Below, in pieces: positions 2,738-28,165 of a DNA stretch of 64,000 nt (positions are counted from its first letter, which is position 1; each line of letters begins with the position of its first letter). Origin of the DNA: Candidatus Jettenia sp. AMX2 (GTDB taxonomy: Bacteria; Planctomycetota; Brocadiia; Brocadiales; Brocadiaceae); assembly GCA_030583665.1 (NCBI GenBank), contig CP129469.1:1116001-1180000 (forward strand), written 5' to 3'. The notes beneath the pieces are model-generated. The model saw only the letters and a list, made by a program, of their open reading frames with translations. It was not told the DNA's origin and did no database searches. Made by a program: the position numbers and the translations under genes.

Positions 2738-4798
2738 TTATGCTACTGGTAAGATAAATCTGAATGTTGAACCTTTCCCGGGACCTTCGCTTTCCACACT
2801 CAATTGCCCCTGATGGACCTCAATGATGTTTTTGCATATTGCTAGACCTACTCCTGCACCATCCATTCGCGGGCGTTCCTGGAAGAATCTTTCAAATAAT
2901 TTGGTAAATTTCTCTTTTGGCAGCCCAATCCCTACTCCGGTATCTTTAATAACAAATTCCAGATAATATCCCTTTTGTTCTACCGAGATATGGATTTCCC
3001 CTGCCTCTGTATATTTTATGGAGTTGTCAATAAGATTGGTGATTACCCGCTGAATTTCATCCTTATCGCCGATCACCGGTGGTACCATGTCAGGAATTTG
3101 ACATGTCAGAACCAGCCCTTTTTTTTCTGCAAGGAGCCGCATGCCACTGACTGTCTGGGCGGTCAGTTCGTTCAGATAGATGGGTTCTTTTTTAAATAGT
3201 AGACGGCCTGATTCCAAAACAGAGAGATCAAGGATGCTGTCGATAGTTTTGCGCAGCCTCCGCAGGCTGTCGTTGATAATCTTATTAAAAATCTCTTCTT
3301 TGGAAGGGTCCAGATTCCCCTTCTTTACTTCCTTTGACCACAGATCAATTGCCATTTGTACCTGGGCAACGGGAGATTTGAGTTCGTGAGATACATCACG
3401 TATCATTTTATCCTTCATCTGATCAAGCGTGAGTAATTCCCTGTACGCCCTTTCTAAATTACTGCTCTGGTTTTCAAGTTCCTGGTTAATACGGATAAGG
3501 TCTTTGGTCCTTTCCTCAACGGTTTTTTCCAAATTTGTAGTATATTCTTTTAGTATTTGGGTCTTCTCTTCCAGAAAACTTGCCATTTTATTGAAAGAGT
3601 TTGATAGTTCCCCGACTTCGTCATCGGAGATAATTTTTACCCGTTTGCTGTAGTCACCTTCCAAAATGCTTTTTGTTACTTCGGTGAGGTATAGTAGCGG
3701 TTCGGATATCTTTTTACCGAAAAAGAACGCAAAAGAAATAACAACGAAGGTAACAAGCACCATGATTGTAGAAACAATAGTATGGAGTTTTTTTACTGTA
3801 CCATAACCTTCATTTACATCGATTTCTGCGATAACACCCCAGTTGAGTTCAGGAATCCATTGCCAAAAACCCAATACCTGTACACCACGGTAGTCTTCAT
3901 ATCCTTCTCCGTCATGTCCGCTGCCTCCCTTAAGACATTCCTTAACGCTCCTGATAAATTTTCCTGTTTTTGGATTAATTACTTTGAGTTCCAGGGTCGT
4001 TCTCTGGCGAACAATACCAAAGTTCTTCAGATCTTTTACAAACCTGGATTCAGAAATCATAAAACCATCTTTATTGATAAGATAGGTTTCCCCTGTTTCT
4101 CCTAACCGGACGCTCCTCATGAGCTTGCCAATCACCATTACATCTACCCTCAAACATACCACCCCGATAATTTTGTTTTCGTAAATAACCGGTGTGGTGA
4201 TATAGAGTGTTGGCATGCCTGTTTCTAACACCCCGTATTCATTTTCCAATGGAATCACGGAGGGGGCAATCGGTGAAACGAACGTAATACCATTGAGAGC
4301 TTTCTTGAAAAATTCATATCCGGCGACATTGGTTATTGCCATTCCGGTTGCAGTCGTGATCTTTAAATCACCGTGACGGTCGCAGATAAAAATTTCTTTA
4401 TAACCATACGTATCGCGGAGGCTGTTTAAATGGTGCATTAGCCGGTAGAAATTTTCACTTCCTTCCGATTTGTAAATTACGCCTGGCACATTAGGGTTTT
4501 GGGCAATGATTTTTGCATCTGCCTTTCTTTCATTAATCCAGTTTACAATAATTTCTGCCTGTTTATGTCCGACCCCTTCCAGATTTTTTATCAATGCCTC
4601 CTGCAACGCTTTTTTCTCAGTAGGATAAATGAATACCCTCATAATAAAAATAGGAAATATTGAGAGAAGGATTGACGAAATGATAATTTTTGTCCTTATG
4701 GACTTGTAAGAAGGAATGTTGAACTTATTTAAAAACCGGAGGAAGATGTCTCTGTAACATAAAGACTTTTGCTGAATTCGCCTTATGAGTGCTTTCAT
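2738..4798 (-). CDS. Membrane-bound sensor histidine kinase (Cache-HAMP-HisKA-HATPase)
   Basis: A 686-residue kinase. TM1 lies near residues 36-58. A large extracytoplasmic sensor region of the double-Cache kind follows to about 335, then TM2 (VLVTFVVISFAFFFGK), a HAMP linker and a short coiled coil. The phospho-acceptor is H471 in VSHELKSP. The ATPase domain shows the N box (NLIDNSIKYT), G1 (DTGVGIG) and G2 (GAGVGLAI). It probably senses a small periplasmic or paryphoplasmic ligand, but no dedicated response regulator is adjacent. It follows the radical SAM gene at 4839-6743 by about 40 bp on the same strand, so the two may be co-transcribed. The insertion sequence sits immediately downstream of its stop and leaves the frame unchanged. 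Confidence 0.9.
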   Translation of the reverse strand: MKALIRRIQQKSLCYRDIFLRFLNKFNIPSYKSIRTKIIISSILLSIFPIFIMRVFIYPTEKKALQEALIKNLEGVGHKQAEIIVNWINERKADAKIIAQNPNVPGVIYKSEGSENFYRLMHHLNSLRDTYGYKEIFICDRHGDLKITTATGMAITNVAGYEFFKKALNGITFVSPIAPSVIPLENEYGVLETGMPTLYITTPVIYENKIIGVVCLRVDVMVIGKLMRSVRLGETGETYLINKDGFMISESRFVKDLKNFGIVRQRTTLELKVINPKTGKFIRSVKECLKGGSGHDGEGYEDYRGVQVLGFWQWIPELNWGVIAEIDVNEGYGTVKKLHTIVSTIMVLVTFVVISFAFFFGKKISEPLLYLTEVTKSILEGDYSKRVKIISDDEVGELSNSFNKMASFLEEKTQILKEYTTNLEKTVEERTKDLIRINQELENQSSNLERAYRELLTLDQMKDKMIRDVSHELKSPVAQVQMAIDLWSKEVKKGNLDPSKEEIFNKIINDSLRRLRKTIDSILDLSVLESGRLLFKKEPIYLNELTAQTVSGMRLLAEKKGLVLTCQIPDMVPPVIGDKDEIQRVITNLIDNSIKYTEAGEIHISVEQKGYYLEFVIKDTGVGIGLPKEKFTKLFERFFQERPRMDGAGVGLAICKNIIEVHQGQLSVESEGPGKGSTFRFILPVA

Positions 4799-4838: not shown

Positions 4839-6743
4839 TTATTCAGAATCAGGATTATCAGGGTTTGTTTGAAAATTCTTTTTAACAAAAGAAGGAATAT
4901 TTTTCATATATTGGTCCATCAGCTCAAGGGTAATTTCCGTAAAACCCTGCTGAACAGCGAAATCTTCGAGCGATTTCTTTGCCCTGTTTCTAACAAAAAC
5001 CGGTGCTCTTTCCAGACGTTTTTTTGCTTCACTTGTCCATACGGGTGATGCAGATACTTTTTCTTCTTTTGTTTTATCAGCAGCCTTCATATATGCCTGA
5101 AATTTGGCAATAATTCCATCGTTCCTGATTGTCCGTTCTTCAAGGAATTTCTTAATAGTATCAACAACCTCTTTCTTGCGTACACTTTTTAACTTCTCTT
5201 TTGCCTTGTCCCATGCGTCCATTCTCAGTTCATCAAATCCAATATTTCTGATGCGGTCTGACGCAAGCCGCATTGATTCATCCCTGATTTCCGAAAGAAA
5301 CTGAGAGGTGATTTCCTTGTATCCGTGCAGTCGTGCTTTCTTTTGCATAAGCTTTAAGATGCCTGGTCTTACAAAGTCAGGGGCACTTTCCACACGTTTC
5401 CTGGCCTCCTCCCTCCATGGGATTTCACCATTCTGGTCTTTATCTTCTTTTTCCGTAAGGCCTTCTGTTTTATTCTTTATAGGAAAAGCAGTTCTTTTGT
5501 TCGATATCATTTCTTCCCGCGCAGCTTTCATTATCCCGGTGGTGATTGTGTAAAGATTCTTTTTTGCTGCGTAGTTTTCTATGTTTTTAATAACCATACC
5601 CCGGCTGAAGGAAGGGATTTGCTTCAGGATGTTTTTTGCCCCTGCGTCCCAGTTCATGGTAAAATGTTCCTCAATTCCAAAGGTTTCGGATGACGATAGT
5701 TGAATAACCTTATTGCCATAATTCCCGGGGATATAGTTGCACCATGCATCTTCGTCCATTTGATTTCCTGTTGTGGCCAATGCCCTTGCCCTGCAGCCTT
5801 TACAGAGATGCTTAAACTCGCATATGCCACATCTGCCATGAAGGTTATCAAACCTCAGGGTTTGGAAATCAGCCGCGTTTTTCCAGATATCGGCGAAGCT
5901 TTTCTCTTTTACATTTCCTGAACTATCCGGCATGTAAGGGCACGGGGTAACATCCCCTTCGGGGGTTATCCTGCAATAATGAGTGGCAGCCGGACAACCA
6001 CCTGCATATGCCCTGATAAGGGGGGATGATGGGTCGTGTTCATATACTATCCTCCGGTAGTGGGGCGCACACTTTGCCCCAACCATCATCTTTTCACGAT
6101 AATTTTTTTGTAATTCATAAAGCTGATGCAATGCCTGATCATATTGCTGAGGTGTAATGTCCGTTAATTCCTGTCCTTTCCCGGTACACACTAAAAAAAA
6201 CAGGTTAAATACCTTGGCGCCTAGGTTGCAGGAGAACTCGAGAATTTCTGGAATCTCATTGAAATTTTCCCGGGTGACTGTCGTTTGTATCTGAAACTCA
6301 ATTCCTTGTCTGCGGCATGCCTCTATGCCGTTAAGGGTACTCTCCCATGCGCCGGGAATCCCCCGGAAGGTATCGTGTTTTTCCGGTGCAATAGAATCGA
6401 GGCTGATACCAATGCCTGCCACGCCGCTCTCTTTTAGTTTTTTTGCCCGGTCATCATCAATCATGTTCCCGTTTGTACCCAGTACGACCATCATTCCCTT
6501 TTGTGAGGCGTATGCGGCAAGATCGTAAATATCCTCCCTTAACAAGGGTTCGCCACCGGTAAGGATCAGTAATACATGAGGATTCAGTTCCGCTATTTGG
6601 TCTATGAGGGTAAATCCTTCCCGGGTGCTGAGTTCATTGGCTGATTGTTTGGTTAGTGCATTGGTATCCAGATAACAATGACTGCAGCGTAAGTTACACC
6701 GGTAGGTCGTATTCCACGAGATTGCATATGGTTTGTAATTCAT
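4839..6743 (-). CDS. Radical SAM/SPASM protein with three C-terminal PCP_red-like domains
   Basis: A 634-residue protein. The radical SAM CxxxCxxC motif is in YRCNLRCSHC near the N-terminus, followed by the glycine-rich TGGEPLLRED. A SPASM-type Cys cluster (GGCPAATHYC, TPCPYMP, CGICEFKHLCKGC) lies around residues 245-320, expected to bind auxiliary iron-sulfur clusters. The overall look recalls the NirJ/AhbC/AhbD haem-modifying group. The C-terminal half carries three related segments starting near WDAGAKNILKQIPSF, WREEARKRVESAPDF and WTSEAKKRLERAPVF, each matching the PCP_red pattern (W..EA...L...P.FVR). Known PCP_red domains occur in protochlorophyllide reductase subunits and near tetrapyrrole or iron-sulfur enzymes. 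A role in haem or haem-derivative synthesis is inference; peptide modification is the alternative. Confidence 0.8.
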   Translation of the reverse strand: MNYKPYAISWNTTYRCNLRCSHCYLDTNALTKQSANELSTREGFTLIDQIAELNPHVLLILTGGEPLLREDIYDLAAYASQKGMMVVLGTNGNMIDDDRAKKLKESGVAGIGISLDSIAPEKHDTFRGIPGAWESTLNGIEACRRQGIEFQIQTTVTRENFNEIPEILEFSCNLGAKVFNLFFLVCTGKGQELTDITPQQYDQALHQLYELQKNYREKMMVGAKCAPHYRRIVYEHDPSSPLIRAYAGGCPAATHYCRITPEGDVTPCPYMPDSSGNVKEKSFADIWKNAADFQTLRFDNLHGRCGICEFKHLCKGCRARALATTGNQMDEDAWCNYIPGNYGNKVIQLSSSETFGIEEHFTMNWDAGAKNILKQIPSFSRGMVIKNIENYAAKKNLYTITTGIMKAAREEMISNKRTAFPIKNKTEGLTEKEDKDQNGEIPWREEARKRVESAPDFVRPGILKLMQKKARLHGYKEITSQFLSEIRDESMRLASDRIRNIGFDELRMDAWDKAKEKLKSVRKKEVVDTIKKFLEERTIRNDGIIAKFQAYMKAADKTKEEKVSASPVWTSEAKKRLERAPVFVRNRAKKSLEDFAVQQGFTEITLELMDQYMKNIPSFVKKNFQTNPDNPDSE

Positions 6744-25688: not shown

Positions 25689-25732
25689 GGTTTTAGGGAA
25701 AAAAATCAGAAATGAAAGGAGAAGACCAACTG

Positions 25733-28165
25733 ATGAGTAATAAGAGAGTATCAGTAGCAATGGCATCAGCGCTGGTGGCTGGTGCGTTGGTCTGTGGGGA
25801 AATCTTTGCGGCTAACAACCAGGTAATGACTGGCGGTTCCAAGCCGGGGAAGGCCTTATGGACAGATTATAGTGGCATGTCGAAGGAAGTGCAGGGTCCT
25901 GTAGATACGATTCTGTTTACACAGTCACCGAGGACAGAGAAGGGTGATCCGTATCACAACTATCCGCATTATGTTTCTGAGGGTAGCAGGATTGTATCAC
26001 TGAACCTGAAGACGAAGGAACTGAAGGTATTAACAGGTGATTTTGCGTCAGCGTTTGACCCATGCACCTATTGGGACGGGAAGAAGTTTACGTTTGCCGG
26101 TATTCACAAGAAGGGCGGCGGATGTCAGATCTGGGAGATGAACATTGACGGAAGTGGATTGAGGCAGATGACAGATTATAAGGGAACCTGCCGCAGTCCC
26201 ATTTATTATGCAGCGGGGAGTATCGAGGAAGGAAAGGGACGTATTATATGGCGTGACAGGTATTTTGAGGGAGACTGGAAGGAAAGAGGGACGGTAGACA
26301 AGACCGGATTCATCATTTTTGCAGGAGCTCCCGAAGGGGTGATGGACGAGTATCATCAGCCCTATGCTTACAACCTGTACCGTTTGGATACTCAGGGTGG
26401 ACATGTAACGGAGAGAATAACCGGGCATGTATTGTCAGGAATTGAGTATTCACAGTTAAATACCACGATAGATCAGATTACGTATAATTTAAGTTCGAAT
26501 TATGATCCGTGGTTAACCCCGGATGGAAACATCCTGTTTTCGAGCGTGCAGGCGAACGGTAGCAGGGCAGGCGGAGAAGGCAGGGTAATGCTTTGTGTGG
26601 ACAACTGGGATGGTGCATATCCAAGGCATATATTTGGGAATTATGATGATAGTATTGGAGGGACATGCGGGAGATCGCAGGCCAAGATAACCTTTGGAGA
26701 CAGGAAGATTGTCTTTGTTGAGTCACCATACAGGAATTGGGGTGTAGGGCAGCTGGCAGCAGTGAGCTGGGATGCTCCGTTCAACAAGACCTATGAGAGG
26801 GTAAACAAGGATGAAGGCGGGTTGTACCGGAGTCCGTATCCGCTTCCGGATGACAGGATGCTGGTATCGTATGCATCCCGTGGTGATTTTGGGATATACT
26901 GGTTTGATTTTAAGAATTGCCGTGCCGGTGAGTTGGTGTATGATGATCCGGAGTGGAACGAGCACCAGCCAGCCCCTGTATATACGAAGTACAGGCCAAG
27001 GTGGATCAACACCTTTACGGCAGGTAAGGATTTTGGGGTGACGGTAGTTACCTATCAGCCGTTTGATCAGGTGAAGGTGGAAGGGTATCCGCATTCCTGG
27101 GGAACCTGGATTTGTTTTGACACGACGTTAACGCAGGCACCGGTAGGTCCCTATCCGCACCAGAGGGCGAAGGTAACAAAGCCTGGTGATATAAAGGCGG
27201 TAAGGATTATTCAGGGAGTACCGTGCGTTGAGCCGGATGCATCACGTTTCAAAGCAGGAGCGGGAAGTCATCTTCTGGGAGGAGCCAGGTCAAGCACGAA
27301 TTCCGGGACGGCGTTTCAGCAGAGGAAGATCATTGGATATCAGTATGTAGAGGATGATGGTTCAGTGGTAACATCCCAGGTATCCGATACTCCGTATTAC
27401 ATCCAGAATCTGGATGAGAGGGGGATGGCGGTACAGTCTGCACTGATGTGGGCATATTTAAGGCCATATCATGGGAGGATATGTAGTGGATGTCATGACG
27501 GTTCGTATTCAGGAAGGGCATTCCAGAATCAGCATACGAAGGCGTTGTACAACTGGTGGTATGATGACAGGAGTCACTATGATTCACCTTTTGCATTTGC
27601 ATACATAAAGTTTGACAAGCAGGGAATTTATCAAGGTGTAAAGCACGGGGATGATGTTGTGGTACCGTCAGACGTATATTATGGTGGTCCGTCAGGAACG
27701 ACGTCCCAGCCGGTGGAAGGGTTAACGGAGGAGAAGAGAAGGACGGTGGATTTCAGGAGGGACATTCAGCCGATTATAGATGCGAAGTGTGCGAAGTGTC
27801 ATGATGCAAACAATCCGCCGGAGTTGACAGGTGGTGCAGAGCCAGTTAACGTTGATGGGATAGCGGCATTCAGCAGGGCATACAACAGCCTGCTGGTCCC
27901 ACAGAGGGGCAAGGATCCGAACATTGGTGGCAAGTATGTAAATCCGTCAGCGGCCATCAACAGCTTGCTTGTCTGGAGGTTATATGAAGAGCCGTTAAGT
28001 CAGTTTACGCCGAAGGAAGACGTATTTCCGAAGGAAGGCCGGGTGTTGCATGATAAGTTCCTTACCCAGGAAGAAAGGTATATGATTGTAGAATGGATTG
28101 ACATTGGTGCACAATGGGATAACATTCAGGGGCCTGACTTCTATGCAGGGTATCGGGGAAGGTAA
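25733..28165 (+). CDS. hzsA: Hydrazine synthase alpha subunit
   Basis: 810 residues from the ATG at 25733, downstream of AAAGGAGA; a 7-residue longer start at 25712 has no ribosome site. A signal peptide is followed by a large propeller-like region. Two haem sites lie near the C-terminus: CSGCH (Cys584) and CAKCH. The tyrosine eight residues after Cys584 (CSGCHDGSY, Y592) corresponds to the unusual Tyr591 haem-iron ligand described for Kuenenia kuste2861, whose numbering differs by one. This is the catalytic subunit proposed to join hydroxylamine and ammonia to hydrazine. It is the last gene of the unit, with a strong terminator 56 bp after the stop. Confidence 0.97.
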   Translation: MSNKRVSVAMASALVAGALVCGEIFAANNQVMTGGSKPGKALWTDYSGMSKEVQGPVDTILFTQSPRTEKGDPYHNYPHYVSEGSRIVSLNLKTKELKVLTGDFASAFDPCTYWDGKKFTFAGIHKKGGGCQIWEMNIDGSGLRQMTDYKGTCRSPIYYAAGSIEEGKGRIIWRDRYFEGDWKERGTVDKTGFIIFAGAPEGVMDEYHQPYAYNLYRLDTQGGHVTERITGHVLSGIEYSQLNTTIDQITYNLSSNYDPWLTPDGNILFSSVQANGSRAGGEGRVMLCVDNWDGAYPRHIFGNYDDSIGGTCGRSQAKITFGDRKIVFVESPYRNWGVGQLAAVSWDAPFNKTYERVNKDEGGLYRSPYPLPDDRMLVSYASRGDFGIYWFDFKNCRAGELVYDDPEWNEHQPAPVYTKYRPRWINTFTAGKDFGVTVVTYQPFDQVKVEGYPHSWGTWICFDTTLTQAPVGPYPHQRAKVTKPGDIKAVRIIQGVPCVEPDASRFKAGAGSHLLGGARSSTNSGTAFQQRKIIGYQYVEDDGSVVTSQVSDTPYYIQNLDERGMAVQSALMWAYLRPYHGRICSGCHDGSYSGRAFQNQHTKALYNWWYDDRSHYDSPFAFAYIKFDKQGIYQGVKHGDDVVVPSDVYYGGPSGTTSQPVEGLTEEKRRTVDFRRDIQPIIDAKCAKCHDANNPPELTGGAEPVNVDGIAAFSRAYNSLLVPQRGKDPNIGGKYVNPSAAINSLLVWRLYEEPLSQFTPKEDVFPKEGRVLHDKFLTQEERYMIVEWIDIGAQWDNIQGPDFYAGYRGR

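Follow-up and report, generated by a model that had tools for sequence, protein, structure and literature searches.

What does a radical SAM enzyme with a tail of PCP_red domains do in an anammox bacterium, and with which other proteins does it work? The gene that raises this question lies within a 64,000-nucleotide stretch of the Candidatus Jettenia sp. AMX2 genome (the window, analysed over its whole length), a genome that consists of a single contig of 3.46 Mb. The host is an anammox bacterium, since hydrazine synthase (HzsA) is encoded in the same window at 25712–28165. HzsA is encoded twice in this genome with 100% identity (second copy at C1:381686–384136), and several relatives likewise carry two identical-scoring copies. 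The window also shares a nearly identical 570-aa transposase-like frame (994–2706; named by eye) with another locus of the genome (L008, 1213–2925); one of the pair lies near the gene under study and the other near an AhbA/AhbB locus.

The reading frame is open throughout, and its product is a radical SAM/SPASM enzyme with three PCP_red domains (Table 1), as the earlier note on this DNA had proposed. A search with PF08369 matched three stretches of the whole protein (125.3 bits, cut-off 32.5, E 9e-37); scanned singly, domains 1 and 3 scored above the cut-off and domain 2 just below it. Domain 2 is nevertheless present in every Brocadiaceae ortholog and every two-copy ortholog examined. Full-length Brocadiaceae matches were 71–80% identical to the protein. 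The three radical SAM cysteines (C16, C20, and C23) were invariant in 60/60 aligned orthologs, as were all eight SPASM cysteines (C225 to C335), and Pfam placed the SPASM domain at residues 250–308.

Table 1 The radical SAM/SPASM–PCP_red gene, its domains, and its downstream neighbor (positions in the window).
Feature	Positions	Strand	Basis
Radical SAM/SPASM-(PCP_red)3 protein, 634 aa	4839..6743	-	Pfam domains, family profiles, orthologs
Radical_SAM core domain, residues 11–170; CX3CX2C at C16, C20, C23	6234..6713	-	Pfam
SPASM region; C225, C250, C268, C305, C308, C314, C317, C335, AhbD-type spacing	5739..6071	-	Ortholog alignment
PCP_red domain 1, residues 363–412	5508..5657	-	Pfam, 48.8 bits alone
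PCP_red domain 2, residues 441–490	5274..5423	-	Pfam, 30.5 bits alone
Helical spacer, residues about 503–562, not PCP_red by profile	5058..5237	-	Predicted model, hhalign
PCP_red domain 3, residues 567–615	4899..5045	-	Pfam, 65.7 bits alone
dCache/HAMP/HisKA/HATPase sensor kinase, directly downstream, same strand	2738..4798	-	

Predicted structures agree with the domain assignment. An AlphaFold2 model of the full protein, built from 60 aligned sequences, reached a mean pLDDT of 86.1 (pTM 0.67), and a separate model of the C-terminal part reached 78.4 (pTM 0.40). The C-terminal model best matched the NMR structures of PCP_red domains (2kru, Z 8.0, 59 residues aligned at 4.9 Å; 2l09, Z 7.4, 62 aligned at 3.0 Å), and a Foldseek test of the PCP_red fold gave 0.7 Å over 49 columns (E 0.07). 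AAA+ lid domains also resembled this part, at Z about 4–6, values that are frequent among helical domains. In the model, the helices at residues 503–562 are arranged much like those of PCP_red, and this stretch was considered as a fourth, cryptic copy, but profile comparison rejects this: hhalign probabilities against each PCP_red copy were ≤1.9%, compared with 98–99% among the true copies, and Pfam returned no match. This helical spacer is common to two- and three-copy orthologs.

Across 295 distinct PCP_red domains, one Trp and one Pro were essentially invariant and an Arg, a Phe, and two Ala were conserved at ≥90%, while no column was led by His or Cys. Met led columns 21 (50%), 43 (30%), and the sparsely occupied last column, 50 (62% of 90 sequences). 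We considered PCP_red as a haem-ligating domain and rejected this: because no His or Cys is conserved, the domain is probably not a haem ligand, and its conservation pattern speaks for a docking or edge-on binding role rather than axial ligation.

The earlier note had regarded three tandem copies as unusual, a view that does not hold across the family. Orthologs carry three copies in Brocadiaceae, two in families f4 and f5 (putatively Scalindua-type and Anammoxibacter-type), and one in the f3 genome G034 and in each of five Planctomycetota outside the Brocadiales. Among the anammox families examined, domain 3 is limited to Brocadiaceae; three-copy orthologs recur in Chromatiales/Sedimenticola-type Gammaproteobacteria and in one Nitrospirae and one Chloroflexi record, and the three-copy state needs at least 4 changes on the core tree. 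Three copies are thus one point on a one-two-three ladder and not peculiar to the window's protein. PCP_red also occurs on two further proteins of this genome, one that joins it to universal stress protein (Usp) domains (USP-PCP_red) and a PCP_red-NIR_SIR/4Fe-4S ferredoxin protein, the latter (L008, 5897–6766) adjoining two AhbA/AhbB siroheme-decarboxylase-type (NirDL-like) genes. Poribacteria (L101, L107, L095, L098, and L100) encode additional small PCP_red proteins of 137–174 aa near the enzyme; the 170-aa protein of L101 has a CxxC-type N-terminus with, by eye, a zinc-ribbon look.

The radical SAM core belongs with the NirJ/Ahb tetrapyrrole group, as had been proposed. Its highest-scoring profiles were NirJ2 (TIGR04055, 342.2 bits) and AhbD (TIGR04545, 341.5 bits), both below the curated cut-off of 500, and NirJ (TIGR04051; cut-off 515.45) gave 201.7 bits; three clostridial/actinobacterial NirJ2 sequences scored 527–633 bits against the NirJ2 profile. 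Peptide-maturase profiles scored far lower (mycofactocin maturase, 152.0 bits; PqqE, 132.5 bits; other maturases, below 152 bits), and by profile score the core therefore does not group with peptide-modifying SPASM enzymes, which the tree did not include. In this tree (108 cores, after 166 were thinned to 107 beforehand; a quick tree without bootstraps), a single clade of 48 rows unites the PCP_red enzymes, two of these rows having cut or split frames (SH-aLRT 92–93, or 98 for 47 rows). AhbC and NirJ are separated from this clade by a branch with support of 97, and NirJ2-type groups lie nearest, at a weak 84. The eight-cysteine spacing, described in the accessible part of PMC10452713 as the full SPASM motif of AhbD, occurred in 94/97 PCP_red cores, 17/24 AhbD-type cores, 11/15 other near cores, and 0/30 AhbC-type cores, and a strict pattern recovered it in 57/60 aligned orthologs. 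The core is ~40% identical to the AhbD of its own genome. Solved structures closest to it are mostly peptide-modifying SPASM enzymes (SuiB, PqqE, and SkfB), a resemblance we attribute to a fold shared across the superfamily. Judged by sequence, then, the core appears to be neither NirJ, AhbC, nor AhbD proper, and its expected position on the tetrapyrrole side stands, in a clade of its own toward NirJ2 and AhbD within that group and inside none of the three families.

The earlier note had also looked to a haem pathway lacking an assigned decarboxylase. No such gap was found: the genome encodes a separate AhbD at C1:1414184 (497.3 bits, just under the 500 cut-off) and an AhbC-like gene, so the window's protein is a third, different enzyme. 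Ferrochelatase was absent from the 7 anammox genomes tested and present in 4/4 Nitrospira/Nitrospina genomes, in all of which the rSAM-PCP_red enzyme was the sole match to the AhbD profile (at E 1e-30) and to the NirJ profile (at 1e-35). Since the enzyme is present with either route to haem b, it follows neither, and it is unlikely to serve in making haem b. AhbD was present in both genomes tested from anammox family f2 (G040 and G042; L192 and L193), with a Gly/His-rich insert between the SPASM cysteines; the initial search of near relatives had matched f2 AhbD only partially. In family f4, three AhbC/NirJ1-like radical SAM genes stand in a row (L083, 173–3700; L084, 4556–8092).

We counted neighbors at the best 80 relative loci, with flanks no longer than about 8 kb and often on short contigs. 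The enzyme carried PCP_red at 55 of these loci; the adjacent gene encoded a Usp protein at 31 of them, a cytochrome bd-like gene lay within the flanks at 13, and AhbA/B/C genes were found at none. At the 25 loci counted as lacking PCP_red (which include two members of the clade, L138, cut by a contig end, and L142, with a split frame), an AhbA/B/C gene was present in 20. In both f5 genomes the order runs from a gene for a bd-like membrane protein (PF01654; at one of the two loci it extends beyond the stretch covered) through c-type cytochromes, including an EB_dh (NxrC-type) cytochrome, to USP-PCP_red and rSAM-PCP_red, and a similar order recurs in Alphaproteobacteria (L123 and L131), a gammaproteobacterium (L150), and partly in G118. 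Linkage of the enzyme with the bd-like and USP-PCP_red genes was seen in f5, in several further Planctomycetota, and at proteobacterial loci. Loci from Nitrospina, Nitrospira, and Poribacteria showed no bd-like gene within flanks of ≤8 kb, but bd-like homologs were found elsewhere in the five such genomes searched.

In the window's genome the enzyme gene is unlinked from this module, but its putative partner is not. This partner, in which a C-terminal PCP_red follows two Usp domains (C1:238913–240208; L007, 4914–6209), is encoded between a bd-like gene (C1:231066–233153) and genes interpreted as nxrC, nxrB, chaperone, and nxrA (the last read by eye), and so sits inside the nitrite oxidoreductase (NXR) cluster. 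The Kuenenia NXR cluster kustd1699–1713 has uspA and cydA in a comparable setting according to the accessible part of PMC6423088, a likeness of setting rather than of compared sequences; the table in that source calls the gene only "similar to UspA" and lists no PCP_red, whereas the protein here bears one. Usp partners across relatives have up to five PCP_red copies, and that of Nitrospira (L106, 7032–9143) has three, plus a weak rubredoxin-like match just below cut-off. In Brocadiaceae, the enzyme gene lies away from the bd-like/NXR module and adjoins the dCache sensor kinase, which was downstream in 12/13 loci (not all from independent genomes); this pairing was absent from the 7 non-Brocadiaceae anammox loci examined.

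The association with the bd-like protein holds across whole genomes. Among 392 Planctomycetota genomes, the enzyme was encoded in 35 and the bd-like protein in 38: 34 had both, 1 only the enzyme, 4 only the bd-like protein, and 353 neither (Fisher p 2e-43, with genomes treated without correction for kinship). Both occurred in families f1 (putatively Brocadia-type), f4, f5, f11, f27, f42, and f55, the enzyme only in f82, and the bd-like protein only in f63. Within a selected group of 58 genomes, the bd-like protein was found in 33/35 carriers of the enzyme compared with 2/23 non-carriers. The carriers G343 (64% complete, and the enzyme-only genome among the 392) and G422 gave no bd-like match. 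Of the bd-like-only genomes, G009 (86% complete) and G044 (88% complete) do have PCP_red proteins, and the other two, G137 and G296, make up the f63 cases: in the stretches read (L232 and L231, respectively) the bd-like gene is present with no PCP_red protein, and no such enzyme was found. We considered G296 as a diverged member and rejected it, its match being an AhbD beside an AhbC-type gene; f63 is therefore a true exception to the co-occurrence. G137 also carries c-cytochrome and EB_dh genes. Nine of the 392 genomes with matches at E 1e-70 or better were tallied as non-carriers, since even the strongest values they gave (1e-71 to 1e-83) fell short of those of all PCP_red members (1e-106 or better); six were read at the locus (G087, G129, G168, G182, G327, and G296), none with PCP_red, and G009, G110, and G146 were assigned by score alone.

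Named relatives among the best 80 loci belong to Brocadia, Scalindua, Anammoxibacter, Nitrospina, Nitrospira, Poribacteria, Gammaproteobacteria, Alphaproteobacteria, SAR324, and Chloroflexi. Within 59 near-relative genomes, the window's own included, the enzyme occurred in Brocadiaceae and families f3–f5; four f1/f4 genomes that are incomplete or fragmented (G009, G044, G054, and G056) showed no copy. In family f2, the enzyme, PCP_red, and the bd-like protein were absent from 9/9 genomes, and HzsA was present in 6/9. We therefore rejected an anammox-specific function tied to hydrazine synthase, since the clade occurs in Nitrospira, Nitrospina, Poribacteria, and Proteobacteria and is missing from HzsA-bearing f2. 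The likely partner of the enzyme is instead a cytochrome bd-like/NXR-type respiratory module with its USP-PCP_red protein. The dedicated tetrapyrrole function suggested earlier remains plausible but was incomplete, and neither an anammox-only nor a haem b role fits an enzyme present in ferrochelatase-bearing Nitrospira and Nitrospina.

Several other roles could account for parts of this picture. The enzyme could be a second haem b synthase, an AhbD paralog that would increase the haem supply of an anammox cell rich in haem, as its AhbD score and SPASM cysteine spacing would allow. This is improbable given the true AhbD already in the genome, the sub-cut-off score and different clade, the retention of the enzyme as sole AhbD-like protein by nitrite oxidizers with ferrochelatase, and the lack of AhbA/B/C genes at the PCP_red loci. 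A NirJ2-like step in a haem d1-type or other isobacteriochlorin pathway, for which the highest profile score and the nearest (if weakly supported) clade speak, has about as little in its favor: the score is well short of the NirJ2 cut-off, and NirJ2 genes adjoin AhbA/B/C-type genes, which the PCP_red clade does not.

Two further roles lie outside tetrapyrrole chemistry. As a SPASM protein maturase, the enzyme would alter a side chain in one of the subunits that make up the bd-like/cytochrome complex, with PCP_red and USP recognizing the partner. Its nearest solved folds, the lack of a conserved metal ligand in PCP_red, and the presence of PCP_red on three otherwise unlike proteins in one genome, in the style of a docking tag, are all consistent with such a role, which we nonetheless find unlikely because peptide-maturase profiles score far under NirJ2 and AhbD and the cysteine spacing is of the AhbD type. 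Alternatively, the PCP_red, USP, and kinase genes might form a redox or adenylate signaling set in which radical chemistry is minor or lost. The two Usp domains of the partner and the kinase downstream in Brocadiaceae fit this idea, but invariance of every radical SAM and SPASM cysteine and the lack of such a kinase at the other anammox loci leave it a very small chance.

The reading we tentatively prefer is that the protein is a radical SAM maturase of the tetrapyrrole type, dedicated to a cytochrome bd-like/NXR-linked respiratory module. We infer both its substrate and its product. By analogy with the chemistry of AhbD, as described in the accessible parts of PMC10452713 and PMC11306076, the enzyme would bind a porphyrin and abstract a hydrogen from a side chain, and an electron would leave via the auxiliary clusters. 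Its target would be a haem of the bd-like protein or of partner cytochromes, a suggestion that rests on co-occurrence and gene linkage. The PCP_red domains would most likely be docking or tetrapyrrole hand-over modules linking the enzyme to the USP-PCP_red partner, and the role of the Usp protein itself is a guess. We also put forward, as a doubtful but conceivable extension, that bd-like oxidases of nitrite oxidizers and anammox bacteria carry an undescribed haem made by this rSAM clade and passed on by a carrier system built on PCP_red (enzyme plus USP partner), with the tandem PCP_red copies as carrier sites.

Relatives of each part are known, in other combinations. AhbD has a similar radical SAM/SPASM core and the same SPASM spacing, but the rSAM-PCP_red enzymes differ in their clade, sub-cut-off score, C-terminal PCP_red repeats, lack of Ahb neighbors, and occurrence in ferrochelatase-bearing organisms. 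NirJ2, alike in top profile score and nearest clade, differs in that its sequences lack PCP_red, lie mostly beside AhbA/B/C-type genes, and reach scores that this core does not. The C-terminal PCP_red of BchB/ChlB (2kru, 2ynm, and 8vqi) is the same domain by Pfam, profile (E 5e-8), and fold; here, however, it is found in one to three copies on a radical SAM enzyme without the nitrogenase-like part. The NXR clusters with a bd-like oxidase reported for Kuenenia, Nitrospira, and Nitrospina share the bd-like protein, c-type cytochromes, NxrC type, TorD-like chaperone, and uspA, and name no radical SAM gene in the accessible parts of PMC3578206 and PMC6423088. A literature search that covered few subscription papers found no publication that connects PCP_red to radical SAM, AhbD to anammox, radical SAM plus NirJ to anammox, or nitrite oxidoreductase plus cytochrome bd to radical SAM; PF08369 itself turned up in one paper, on trait space. 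What is new, our data suggest, is the tie between rSAM-PCP_red and a bd-like/NXR respiratory module across phyla.

A haem-synthesis-type radical SAM enzyme with a partner inside the NXR cluster implies that bd-like complexes may need dedicated cofactor maturation, a possibility raised by co-occurrence in distant phyla and by the extra domain that the enzyme shares with its NXR-cluster partner. PCP_red, which takes its name and its solved relatives from chlorophyll synthesis, thereby gains a setting in non-photosynthetic respiration.
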